Positions 35,719 to 39,184 of a DNA stretch of 39,184 nt are shown here, in pieces. Every line of letters starts with the position of its first letter. Position 1 is the first letter of the stretch. Below the pieces are notes generated by a model that worked only from the letters and a program-made list of their open reading frames with translations, did not search any database and was not told where the DNA came from. Made by a program: the position numbers and the translations under genes. The stretch covers positions 1-39,184 of IMG/VR virus record IMGVR_UViG_3300008954_000113; one strand, given 5' to 3'. The stretch is from a virus.

Positions 35719-36543
35719 TCAATTATCGCTATCTATTGTATCATCCGCCACACCTCGGACCTGACTTCTAGACATTAAACCACTTTCAGTGTTTATGGCT
35801 GGCTCAAGTTCAACAAAATTAAGTGAAAGAGTAGTCACTGCGGGATAACTTTTTTTCTTTTCGCCTTCGACTCCTTGTGTTGCTGCAAATGGACCGCCTG
35901 CTGAACCCTGTGTGCCTATATTGACAGATTCTAATACAGAAGGAAGTGGTCCCATGTCCCAGCGAAACCCTTTATAATCATCTGCATTAAGATTCATAAC
36001 ATTAATAAACCAAATTGGTGGATGAAGAACCCTAGAATAGGTATCCGCAACAGTACGATTTGGATATGCCATTCTTTGAAATTCCCTTACAATTGCAGTA
36101 ATTGTTGTTGCATCACCAGGTGCTTTGGGAGCCAATTTCCAAGAATAAGAATGTCGTCTGAATTCTGCTCCCTTGAAAATGCTATCACTTTCATCCATCG
36201 GTCTGTGACCCAAAGCAGAAGAAACTCCTAGAATGTCCATTGCAGAATTTATACGAGTGATATCCAAAAACGCACTCCACAACCCAGTAGCAGTTGGGTC
36301 AAAAATACTACCAGACACATCGGCTTGACCTCTGCTATACCTAATTCGGTTATCTATTTTTATGTTTCGGGGCATAGGCAGTGTAATGTCTGCCCAAGTT
36401 CCTGTCATTTTTTGAACACCCGAATATGCCCGGACTGACTGTTTGTTAGAATATCTAGCAGCAACAAAATTTATTCGATACTCTCCTAAATCTTCAACAG
36501 AATCAAAATTACCGGTTGGTGGAAAAATTAATCTATCTGTCAT
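35719..36543 (-). CDS. 48: Baseplate tail tube cap, gp48-like
   Basis: gp48 binds the top of the hub and with gp54 starts the tail tube. The product is 274 aa (T4 364). The second half matches T4 gp48: SYSWKLAPKAPGDATTITAIVREFQRMAYPN, then VLHPPIWFINVMNLNADD, MGPLPSVLESVNIGTQGS and a final VTTLSLNFVELEPAIN. These parallel T4 'FTWDLTPRSTEDLMAIINIYQYFNYFSYG', 'NPTVWMVKNFG', 'FGPCQIQSIRFDKTPNG' and 'STFTLEITMREIITLN'. It is the first gene of the minus-strand run. Its SD is AAGGA (7 nt), and a TATAAATA late promoter lies 31 bp before the ATG. It overlaps only an implausible upstream extension of the divergent gp4 ORF. Confidence 0.82.
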   Translation of the reverse strand: MTDRLIFPPTGNFDSVEDLGEYRINFVAARYSNKQSVRAYSGVQKMTGTWADITLPMPRNIKIDNRIRYSRGQADVSGSIFDPTATGLWSAFLDITRINSAMDILGVSSALGHRPMDESDSIFKGAEFRRHSYSWKLAPKAPGDATTITAIVREFQRMAYPNRTVADTYSRVLHPPIWFINVMNLNADDYKGFRWDMGPLPSVLESVNIGTQGSAGGPFAATQGVEGEKKKSYPAVTTLSLNFVELEPAINTESGLMSRSQVRGVADDTIDSDN

Positions 36544-36574
36544 GTTTAATCCTTATTGTGGTTTCTGTACTATA

Positions 36575-36582
36575 TATTTATA
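36575..36582 (-). promoter_or_regulatory. T4-type late promoter octamer TATAAATA heading the minus-strand baseplate operon
   Basis: This is an exact TATAAATA on the minus strand in the 38-bp divergent gap, 31 bp before the gp48 ATG. Its last base (36582) is also the first base of the gp4 ATG on the other strand. Context and spacing agree with the second exact copy at 24117. Confidence 0.62.
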
Positions 36583-37016
36583 TGGCTTACAAAACAAGAT
36601 ACACAATCCAAAATCCCTCTAAATATATAGGAGATCCTTTGGGAATAATTTGTCGTTCTTTATGGGAAAGACGAGTGTGTCGCTATCTGGATGAAAATAA
36701 AAACGTTATTCGATGGGGCAGCGAAGAATTGCCAATTCCGTATTATTCGCCATTAGACAAAAAAACACACAGATATTATCCAGATTTTATCGCAGAAGTT
36801 AAAAAACAAAACGGCGATATTGTGACATACATCATAGAAGTAAAACCCAAAAAACAAACAAAATTCCCCGAAAGAAAAAAGAAAAAAGAAAAAACTTATG
36901 TTCAAGAATGTATGACATACGCCATAAATAAAGAGAAATGGTCTTCCGCACATAAAATGTGTAGAAAAAATGGCTGGAAATTTTTAATAATCACAGAAGA
37001 TAACATTCTACCATAA
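36582..37016 (+). CDS. 4: Head completion protein, gp4 (gp50/65)-like
   Basis: gp4 is a head-completion protein of T4-type phages that finishes filled heads before tail joining. The 144-residue product (T4 about 150) starts MAYKTRYTIQNPSKYIGDP. It continues IICRSLWERRVCRYLDEN, then IRWGSEELPIPYYSPLDKKTHRYYPDFI and YIIEVKPKKQ, and ends CRKNGWKFLIITEDNI. The PD in YYPDF and the ExK in IEVKP form a PD-(D/E)xK nuclease-like motif, as known for this family. A longer reading from a TTG at 36516 would add a hydrophobic 22-residue leader not typical of gp4, so I use the ATG. No convincing SD precedes that ATG. It lies on the plus strand, divergent from gp48. Confidence 0.88.
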   Translation: MAYKTRYTIQNPSKYIGDPLGIICRSLWERRVCRYLDENKNVIRWGSEELPIPYYSPLDKKTHRYYPDFIAEVKKQNGDIVTYIIEVKPKKQTKFPERKKKKEKTYVQECMTYAINKEKWSSAHKMCRKNGWKFLIITEDNILP

Positions 37017-37025
37017 GAGTAACAA

Positions 37026-37619
37026 ATGATTTTACCATTACCACAAGCACCACACACTGACAAAAACGGATCGAGTATTGATTTCTTCAAAAATAACTTT
37101 TTAAAAGGAGGTCTATCTAGACCAACTCGTTATTCTGTCTTAATAGAAACTAATGCATTTGAACCAACTAGAATGTTACTTCAACCAGAAGGTGTTATTG
37201 TTCCTGGTAGATCTTTTAGAACGTTTCAGGATAATTTGTGGGGGCCCATTAGAAAAGTTCCAGTCAGTCGAACGTTCGAAAATGATTTGGTTATGTTGTT
37301 CCCAGTCGGTAACAACTGGGAAGAGAGAACAATATTTGAAGCATGGATGGATAAGATAATAAATCCTATCACCAACGTAACAAGTTATTCCGATGACGGC
37401 GAAACAGCAAAAGGGACGATAACCTTATATTGTACAAACGAAATGAACGAAACTAAAGCAGTGTTTAATTTTGAAGAAGTTTATCCCTCTAGCATAATAC
37501 CCATGAACATGGGTTTTGACCAAATCAATCAATATAACCGATTACAAGTAGTATTTACTTACAGACAATATACATACAAAGCAGAGAATTTTGATTCTTC
37601 ATCACCCCCCACTCAATAA
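37026..37619 (+). CDS. Tail tube initiator/tube-fold protein, gp54-like (alternatively gp19)
   Basis: The product is 197 aa with the tail-tube fold pattern: FFKNNFLKGGLSRPTRYSVLIE, GVIVPGRSFRT, PVSRTFENDLVMLFPV, TIFEAWMDKIINPITNVTSY and a long final hairpin YNRLQVVFTYRQYTY. The WMDKIINP...F.V.FtYR series is closest in my recall to T4 gp54 (WVNSVQDP...TFDVTFAYR), the initiator on which gp19 polymerises. T4 gp54 is larger (320 aa) and gp19 is 163 aa. Neighbours gp4, gp26 and the divergent gp48 favour a tube-initiation role, but it could be the main tube subunit if gene 19 is absent elsewhere. The SD is weak (AAGAG). Confidence 0.7.
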   Translation: MILPLPQAPHTDKNGSSIDFFKNNFLKGGLSRPTRYSVLIETNAFEPTRMLLQPEGVIVPGRSFRTFQDNLWGPIRKVPVSRTFENDLVMLFPVGNNWEERTIFEAWMDKIINPITNVTSYSDDGETAKGTITLYCTNEMNETKAVFNFEEVYPSSIIPMNMGFDQINQYNRLQVVFTYRQYTYKAENFDSSSPPTQ

Positions 37620-37652: not shown

Positions 37653-38372
37653 ATGAATGCACTATCTAAAATGTTGCTGGAAAAAACACCAAAATATAAC
37701 GTAGAAATTCCATCAACAAAGAAAAAAACAACATTTAGACCTTTTCTTGTCAAAGAAGAAAAAATCCTTTTGATTGCACAGGAAACAGGATCATATAAAG
37801 AAATGTTACAAGCAATAGAAAATGTAATAGAATCTTGTGTTGATGATATTGGAGACGTAGATACTTTACCTGTTTTTGACATAGAGTATTTGTTTCTAAA
37901 GTTAAGAGCCAAGTCTGTCAGTGAAATATCTTCTCCTGTAATACAATGTCCAGTGACTGACGAAGAAATAGAACTTCAAATTAATTTAATGGACATTGAA
38001 CCAGTAATAGATAAAAATCATACAAAAAAAATACAAATAGAAGACGATATTATTGTTGAGATGAAATACCCATCACTGAGAATGATGAAAAATGATGAAG
38101 TTAATACATCATATGATGATCCTGAATCTTTTTATGATATGATAGTAAAATGTATAAGCAAAATCAAAACAAAAGATGAAACAGTTAACGTCTCATCTCT
38201 TCCAGATTCCGAGATAGAAGATTTTATTGGTAACATGAATAAAAATCAATTTGAAAAGGTGTTAGATTTTTTCATAACCTCCCCTCAACTTAAACATACG
38301 GTAAAATACACCACCTCAGACGGAGTTGAACGAGAGGTTACTTTACAAGGAATATCGGATTTTTTAGAATAG
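37653..38372 (+). CDS. 26: Baseplate hub assembly protein/tail chaperone, gp26-like
   Basis: The 239-residue product matches the T4 baseplate gp26 family (T4 208 aa). Landmarks are PKYNVEIPSTKKKTTFRPFLVKEEKILLIAQETG (about 13-46), CVDDIGDVDTLPVFDIEYLFLKLRAKSVSE (about 62-91), QCPVTDEEIELQINLMDIEP, MKYPSLRMM and DFFITSPQLKHTVKY. Proteins of this group act in hub or tail assembly and in many phages are followed by a short partner ORF before the tape measure. The gene ends GGA ATA TCG GAT TTT TTA GAA TAG. The T TTT TTA heptamer in this frame, just before the stop, is a canonical -1 slippage site into the next ORF. The SD is AAAGGA. Confidence 0.87.
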   Translation: MNALSKMLLEKTPKYNVEIPSTKKKTTFRPFLVKEEKILLIAQETGSYKEMLQAIENVIESCVDDIGDVDTLPVFDIEYLFLKLRAKSVSEISSPVIQCPVTDEEIELQINLMDIEPVIDKNHTKKIQIEDDIIVEMKYPSLRMMKNDEVNTSYDDPESFYDMIVKCISKIKTKDETVNVSSLPDSEIEDFIGNMNKNQFEKVLDFFITSPQLKHTVKYTTSDGVEREVTLQGISDFLE

Positions 38373-38400
38373 GATTGAGTCATACTAGTCTAAAAGATTA
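38347..38400 (+). promoter_or_regulatory. Predicted programmed -1 ribosomal frameshift signal
   Basis: Three elements are present. The slippery heptamer T_TTT_TTA at 38360-38366 lies in the gp26 reading frame (GAT TTT TTA). An SD-like AAGGA at 38347-38351 lies 8 nt upstream and could stimulate slippage, as in bacterial dnaX. A weak hairpin (TAGTCT, AAA, AGATTA; one G-T pair) lies at 38386-38400. After a -1 slip the reading continues AGA ATA GGA TTG AGT, directly in frame with the small downstream ORF. The gp26 stop (38370-38372) is passed in the shifted frame. Confidence 0.7.
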
Positions 38401-38590
38401 TTATACTCTCTCCTTTCAATTAGTGCAGCACCACAAATACAGTTTAACTGAATTGGAAAATATGATTCCTTGGGAAAAGGACATATACTTAGCACAATTG
38501 ATTGAATATATAGAAGTGGAAAATGAAAAAATCCAATTAGCAGAGATTGATCGTAGACGCGAAAGAAAAAACCAAGGGATGTTTGGATAA
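38375..38590 (+). CDS. Small tail-assembly chaperone partner, probably expressed as a gp26 frameshift fusion
   Basis: The ORF encodes 71 aa: YYTLSFQLVQHHKYSLTELENMIPWEKDIYLAQLIEYIEVENEK. The 'ysltEle.miPWEkdiy...L..yie.eneki' pattern is that of small ORFs next to gp26-like or lambda gpT-like chaperones, before the tape-measure gene. The only upstream in-frame start is a TTG at 38375, with the nearest AGGA touching it (zero spacing). The first ATG is inside the conserved part. The frame is -1 relative to gp26 and open back through the T TTT TTA heptamer. The natural product is therefore probably a 312-aa gp26 fusion (238 residues, then RIG, then this ORF). It might alternatively start weakly at TTG by coupling with the gp26 stop. 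Confidence 0.7.
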   Translation: MSHTSLKDYYTLSFQLVQHHKYSLTELENMIPWEKDIYLAQLIEYIEVENEKIQLAEIDRRRERKNQGMFG

Positions 38591-38593
38591 AAC

Positions 38594-39184
38594 ATGACAA
38601 AAAAGAAAAACAACAAGATAAATTCCTTCAAAGATGCAATGCTATCGCATTTTAAAAACAAAAATACATCAGATATAAAAATAGTTCCACCTAAAATAAA
38701 AAATCTCCCTACAATTTTAAAAATAATTTCACCTCTACAAGACAACATTCAAAAAAACAATATTCCTAAACGAGAAAAAACATCAGACATTAAAAAAGTT
38801 CCAAACAAGAACAAGGAATATTTAAACATCAGGAAAGATATAGACAATTTAAAGAAAAGCATTAAGGGCATAAAGAATACCAATTTAATAACAAATAATT
38901 ACACCACAAATAACATTCATAAAAAAAACAAAACTAAAAATATCACCGAGAAGAGGAGAGGAATAAAAAACAACAATAACGGTATTCAATTGCCCAAGAT
39001 GATATCAAGTGTTATTAAAAAATCCAACGAATACCAACCAAACACAAATAGAAAAAATATAAACACATCAAACACATCAAACACATCAAACGAATACCAA
39101 CCAAACACAAATAGAAAAAATATAAACACATCAAACGAATACCAACCAAACACAAATAGAAAAAATATAAACACATCAAACACA
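38594..39184 (+). CDS. N-terminal part of a Lys/Asn-rich protein, possibly the tape measure or a hub component (partial)
   Basis: The reading frame is open from the ATG at 38594 to the window end (197 codons, no stop). It begins MTKKKNNKINSFKDAMLSHFKNK, then a basic, low-complexity region rich in Lys, Asn and Ile with short helical parts (KEYLNIRKDIDNLKKSIKGI). It ends in tandem repeats of SNEYQPNTNRKNINT separated by SNT triplets. A GGA lies 7 nt before the ATG. Its position after the gp26/chaperone pair is where a tape-measure gene (gp29 in T4) is expected, but no recognisable tape-measure motif is in this part. The function is therefore inferred from context only. Confidence 0.6.
   Translation, partial: MTKKKNNKINSFKDAMLSHFKNKNTSDIKIVPPKIKNLPTILKIISPLQDNIQKNNIPKREKTSDIKKVPNKNKEYLNIRKDIDNLKKSIKGIKNTNLITNNYTTNNIHKKNKTKNITEKRRGIKNNNNGIQLPKMISSVIKKSNEYQPNTNRKNINTSNTSNTSNEYQPNTNRKNINTSNEYQPNTNRKNINTSNT
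39023..39184 (+). repeat. 45-bp and 9-bp in-frame tandem repeats at the window end
   Basis: Three 45-bp units (39023-39067, 39086-39130, 39131-39175) encode SNEYQPNTNRKNINT and are identical apart from the first serine codon. Two 9-bp TCAAACACA units (SNT) sit between copies 1 and 2, and another closes the window. All are multiples of three, so the frame is kept. The array runs into the window edge and its true length is unknown. Confidence 0.93.

Follow-up and report, generated by a model that had tools for sequence, protein, structure and literature searches.

A putative programmed -1 frameshift in the gp26 gene of a T4-like phage contig, predicted to yield short and long tail assembly chaperones

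Near the end of the contig studied here, which appears to be from a marine T4-like phage, the gp26 homologue raises the question of why its reading frame closes just behind a run of six T residues, while a small open reading frame (ORF) in the -1 frame continues directly beyond it. An earlier note on this DNA proposed that the two are joined by programmed -1 frameshifting, following the logic of the G and GT tail chaperones of lambda. We conclude that a G/GT-kind tail assembly chaperone gene with a programmed -1 frameshift is very probably the right explanation for this locus of the window (the whole stretch of 39,184 nucleotides that was analyzed, IMG/VR record IMGVR_UViG_3300008954_000113). 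The G/GT-like logic of the earlier proposal is supported by the conserved heptamer and -1 register, by the unconserved start of the small ORF, by a natural control provided by T4-type phages, and by a predicted chaperone fold. The features of the locus are as follows.

37026..37619, + strand: tail tube-like gene, upstream (phrog_45, 2.8e-21)
37653..38372, + strand: gp26 homologue, the short chaperone (TAC-N), zero frame, 239 aa (PF12322, phrog_150, AF2 model)
38347..38351, + strand: AAGGA, Shine-Dalgarno (SD)-like element upstream of the slip site (sequence; anti-SD energy)
38360..38366, + strand: slippery heptamer T TTT TTA in the zero-frame register (sequence; T TTT TTN in 98/98 loci)
38366..38590, + strand: -1 frame ORF (TAC-C, C-terminal domain of gp51), 74 sense codons and a stop (phrog_634, tblastn)
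38367..38417, + strand: predicted RNA hairpin immediately 3' of the slip site, a possible stimulator (-15.5 kcal/mol)
38594..39184, + strand: presumed tape measure protein gene, first part only, truncated where the contig ends (motif in the near-identical contig L001; weak PHROG match)

The identity of 37653-38372 as gp26 is certain. The protein matches the family profile PF12322 (T4_baseplate) with an E value of 1e-56 and 192.6 bits, against a curated cut-off of 24.5, and it matches phrog_150 at 4.4e-60; gp26 of the window lineage is about 40% identical to that of cyanophages. The gene ends in GAT TTT TTA GAA TAG, with the zero-frame stop at TAG 38370-38372. The heptamer has the register that had been claimed for it, as it fills the codons 38361-38363 and 38364-38366, and a single sense codon (GAA) separates it from the stop. 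The -1 frame is likewise continuous into the next ORF, running without a stop from AGA 38366 through 74 codons to TAA 38588-38590. The -1 ORF matches phrog_634, a profile annotated as baseplate hub assembly catalyst, at 2.8e-23 over the C-terminal part of that profile. It also has a weak match to the end of phrog_150, and tblastn matched it in 556 phage records. The predicted frameshift fusion has 312 aa; predicted tryptic peptides are EVTLQGISDFLR across the junction if the frame is shifted and the C-terminal EVTLQGISDFLE if it is not.

The frequency of TTTTTTA in this AT-rich window is at chance level (27 seen versus 22.6 expected), so relatives were collected; it is position plus conservation that makes the heptamer significant. 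Relatives were drawn from 80 IMG/VR loci picked on gp26 protein similarity only, from closer loci, and from records of Synechococcus, Prochlorococcus, Pelagibacter, Methylophilales, Vibrio, Sinorhizobium, Rhizobium, Caulobacter, and Aeromonas phages. The 98 loci extracted form 34 clusters at 70% gp26 identity and 16 at 50%. When gp26 homologues were aligned, as the earlier note had suggested, the heptamer and the -1 overlap proved to be conserved in every one of these loci: an in-frame T TTT TT(C/T/A/G) lies near the end of gp26, 0 to 8 codons (nearly always 0 or 1) from the stop. Cronobacter phage S13 and Rhizobium phage IC12, which were read later, have T TTT TTN too. In all complete loci the -1 frame continues for about 57 to 74 codons without a stop (one locus is cut off at 42 where its contig ends), and the +1 frame is open for 3 to 31 codons only.

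Codon choice at the site is similarly constrained. Every sequence (100%) has TTT as its first Phe codon, the chance of T.TTT from the genes' own codon usage is 0.24 per lineage, and of the 93 other Phe-Phe pairs in these genes, only 2 have the slippery form T.TTT.TTY. The product of the per-lineage chances, 7e-22, is not a p-value and overstates the strength because the lineages are not independent. As to suppressed synonymous variation, for which the earlier note had also proposed a test, the highest codon identity within gp26 falls on the eight codons that end at the slip, driven by Ser-Phe-Phe. Synonymous constraint was looked for and not found at the Glu-Gly codons of the SD element in the 34 representatives.

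The strongest alternative is that the small ORF, as annotated, forms a gene of its own and that reinitiation or translational coupling, e.g., at TTG 38375, gives a free gp51-like peptide. In many relatives an ATG does occur no more than five codons from the slip site, and their annotation follows it, the first ATG falling at codons 3 to 7 of the -1 ORF in 16 of the 34 representatives. However, in the remaining 18 it falls at codon 15 or later or is absent, so that half of the lineages have no ATG in the first 14 codons, and the residues before it are conserved, with homology starting at the slip codon. The window has no ATG or GTG near the beginning of the ORF, as had been claimed. Its only near start candidate, TTG 38375, lies two bases past the gp26 stop and 23 nt from AAGGA, and it reads TTA in both closest relatives (L023 and L024, 77% and 69% identical). 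The C-terminal ORF in the -1 frame has no conserved start of its own, which counts against independent translation, and a separate gene would leave the invariant T TTT TTN unexplained. We consider this alternative quite improbable.

The -1 ORF of the window differs from that of L023 at 23 positions, 15 of them third positions, and the differing codons are 15 synonymous and 4 nonsynonymous. The ORF is omitted from the public annotation of S-WAM1, DSL-LC03, and ACG-2014b (L009, L010, and L022), other records begin it at an internal ATG, and a joined CDS appears in none of the regions viewed. Two distant gp26 homologues, from Vibrio phage D533 (L017 2600-2800) and the Ackermannviridae member Dickeya phage Ds9CZ (L019 2770-2960), are without T TTT TTN and stand outside the 98 loci. 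In both, the C-terminal piece (motif MPWH) follows in the -1 frame with a TAATG stop-start overlap, an arrangement that fits a separate small gene; reinitiation, or slippage at a different site, may operate in these two phages.

Elements that could stimulate slippage flank the heptamer on both sides. The SD-like AAGGA reported earlier is present, separated from the heptamer by 8 nt. Over the 34 representatives, anti-SD pairing peaks sharply 6 to 8 nt upstream of the heptamer, with a mean energy of about -6.8 kcal/mol at the peak versus about -2 elsewhere; in the window's clade the element is weak (AAGGA, or CATGGGA in L024). It may play a role in slippage, but given the lack of synonymous constraint in its codons, conservation of the LEGL peptide may account for part of the signal. 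The predicted hairpin of the window has a z score of -2.57, and 2 of 200 shuffles were equally good; over 34 relatives the mean z score is -1.4 (standard error, 0.3), a signal that is not significant in every relative. An exceptionally stable hairpin (-25.7 kcal/mol; z, -8.8) is predicted after the slip site of S-WAM1 (L009 1500-1570).

The T run itself might instead lead RNA polymerase to slip, giving a mixed mRNA pool in which the frames are joined, a process that the seven or eight T residues of some relatives would favor. Six T, however, is generally regarded as short for this, and in most relatives the run is still six T with a C behind it and the two-codon phase is kept, whereas the SD-like and hairpin elements fit ribosomal slippage. 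T runs of nine are mentioned in connection with transcriptional slippage in PMC5009743. We regard polymerase slippage as highly improbable here.

T4-type phages provide a natural control, as genes 26 and 51 of T4 are separate and divergently oriented. T TTT TTN was sought in eight distinct T4-type gp26 sequences, several of them from the T-even group, and was absent (a ninth sequence, L110, does not differ from T4 in the displayed part); the equivalent Phe-Phe or Phe is coded GAG TTC TTT or similarly. The control is small, because only 6 and 10 loci were found for relatives of T4 gp26 and gp51. By this comparison, slippery codons are present where the C-terminal piece has no other route of attachment. 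That the heptamer is a chance poly-T in an AT-rich genome, with Phe-Phe conserved at the protein level and no frameshift, is scarcely credible despite the chance-level number of copies in the window, as it is already contradicted by codon choice that is invariant at the site and neither elsewhere nor in T4-type gp26, and by Rhizobium and Sinorhizobium phages that also retain slippery codons.

A programmed frameshift would also make sense of gp51. T4 gp51 holds the whole PF12322 domain (3.9e-52) plus the phrog_634 piece (1.2e-23) and covers positions 13 to 280 of the 282 in phrog_150, and T4-type gp51 is colinear with the reconstructed fusions across the junction (VF/KLLVNPDEIFTFYQINH versus FL/RIGLSHTSLKDYYTLSF). 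The small ORF, which the earlier note took for the gp51 partner, is indeed related to gp51 but matches only about the last 50 residues of the T4 protein. It is the C-terminal piece alone and lacks the gp51 architecture of one continuous ORF with PF12322 and the C-terminal piece, which is present only in the frameshift fusion. On sequence comparison, the whole of T4 gp51 is the counterpart of the predicted frameshift product and not of the small ORF. Since T4 gp51 combines a gp26-like domain with the C-terminal piece, T4 would have in two genes what these phages have in one frameshifting gene.

This correspondence bears on earlier reports that gp51 of cyanophages and marine vibriophages lacks the first 200 residues and that Aeh1 has no gp51 (Sullivan et al. 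2010, PMC3037559). The 200 residues would appear to be missing because the missing part is gp26, and gp51 was probably deemed missing in Aeh1 because the frameshift half is unannotated there: in Aeromonas phage Aeh1 (L018 3250-3430), as in Cronobacter phage S13 (L120 2650-2830), an unannotated -1 ORF follows gp26, with T TTT TTC.

Of the neighboring genes, the upstream one has a clear tail tube match, and the downstream one is a presumed tape measure gene, with a motif and a weak match to support it in the window's clade. This gene is complete in contig L001 (3442-5124), where it encodes 560 aa with a C-terminal tape-measure-like GGVATSPTLAKIGDAISPSGKPDPEVVAP motif; a family search with it gave no significant match, and the PHROG tape-measure match is weak (E value, 0.04). 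Its identity is presumed from the motif and from the annotation of relatives, HTVC008M and Cr30 having the order gp26, C piece, small ORF, and tape measure. The window ends (39061-39184) within 45-base tandem repeats of this gene. L001 has fewer repeat units, so the repeat number varies or was misassembled. Farther upstream, 36516-37016 encodes a head closure protein (phrog_218) with a match to a TnsA-like nuclease domain (PF08722, 2e-22).

In a VIA-align comparison, the AlphaFold2 model of gp26 (pLDDT, 91) is closest to 2ob9_A, the tail assembly chaperone of HK97 (Z, 8.1; 88 residues within 1-89). Ranks 2 and 3 are 3fgx (7.4) and 3klu (6.9), which we take to be phage chaperones of the same class as 2ob9, and the other matches score 5.2 or lower. 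Foldseek found no significant match of the model in the PDB, and a sequence profile search of gp26 against the PDB found no credible relative. There is moderate support for a tail assembly chaperone fold in gp26, moderate because Foldseek alone was not significant.

Elements, conservation, homology, and fold similarity are what the data show; from these we infer the following course of events, including the slippage itself, its ratio, the part played by the stimulators, and the binding partners. Most ribosomes would end at TAG 38370 and release the 239-aa gp26 (TAC-N). A minority would slip one base back on U UUU UUA, perhaps aided by the downstream hairpin and by base pairing between the upstream AAGGA and 16S rRNA, and would produce the 312-aa fusion (TAC-NC), the last 74 residues of which form the gp51-type C-terminal domain. 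As the tail assembles, both forms probably cover the tape measure protein, the presumed product of the next gene, and recruit tail tube subunits to it.

The predicted system resembles that of lambda gpG and gpGT: a -1 frameshift close to the stop codon gives a short and a long chaperone, and a tape measure gene, presumed in the window, follows. The lambda slippery sequence differs, and the lambda frameshift is experimentally proven, whereas that of the window is predicted. We know of no sequence similarity between the lambda proteins and the window chaperone. T4 gp26 and gp51 both have PF12322, and gp51 shares its C-terminal piece with the -1 ORF, but T4 differs in having two separate, divergent genes and no slippery heptamer. 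The dnaX cassette of Escherichia coli has the same three-part signal of upstream SD, slippery heptamer, and downstream hairpin, although its heptamer is A AAA AAG rather than U UUU UUN and the genes are unrelated.

A study of T4-like tail assembly chaperones is reported to describe, in its abstract, frameshifting as a conserved feature of several T4-like groups, with genes 26 and 51 taking its place in T4. This study (Vladimirov, Gautam and Davidson, Virology 2022, 566:9-15) appears in the reference list of PMC10885494 and is the source given in the 2025 paper PMC12846349 for the poly-T frameshift signals that T4-like TAC-N genes carry. The remark that the mechanism had not been described for T4 gp26/gp51 is therefore out of date, and the unification of gp26-type proteins with GT chaperones, while supported, is not new. 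Vladimirov et al. (2022) dealt with the same gp26/gp51 gene family as that of the window, and an older review (PMC5009743) describes the frameshift as conserved except in T4. In the Vandenendeviridae and Andersonviridae, which are different phage families, the chaperone locus also has a -1 frameshift, likewise deduced from sequence conservation; the motif GTTTTT, which is invariant there, lies at the 3' end of TAC-N (PMC12846349).

The window lineage and its TTTTTTA variant add one member to the T4-like frameshifting chaperones. As the principle was apparently published in 2022, the gain is mainly one of confirmation, breadth, and annotation. We think it likely that the common T4-like state, in phages of cyanobacteria, Pelagibacter, Methylophilales, Rhizobiales, Caulobacter, Vibrio, and Aeromonas/Cronobacter, is a single frameshifting chaperone gene with a dnaX-like signal, and that the T4 lineage swapped this for a gene duplication in which gp26 lost the slip site and gp51 kept the fused form; much of this may already be contained in Vladimirov et al. 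(2022). If true, it would explain both the truncated-looking gp51 of cyanophages and the gp51 thought to be missing in Aeh1. The annotated gp51 proteins of hundreds of marine T4-like phages are indicated to be halves of a frameshift product, and the family offers a clean natural experiment, in which one protein motif occurs with or without slippery codons according to whether a separate gp51 is present.
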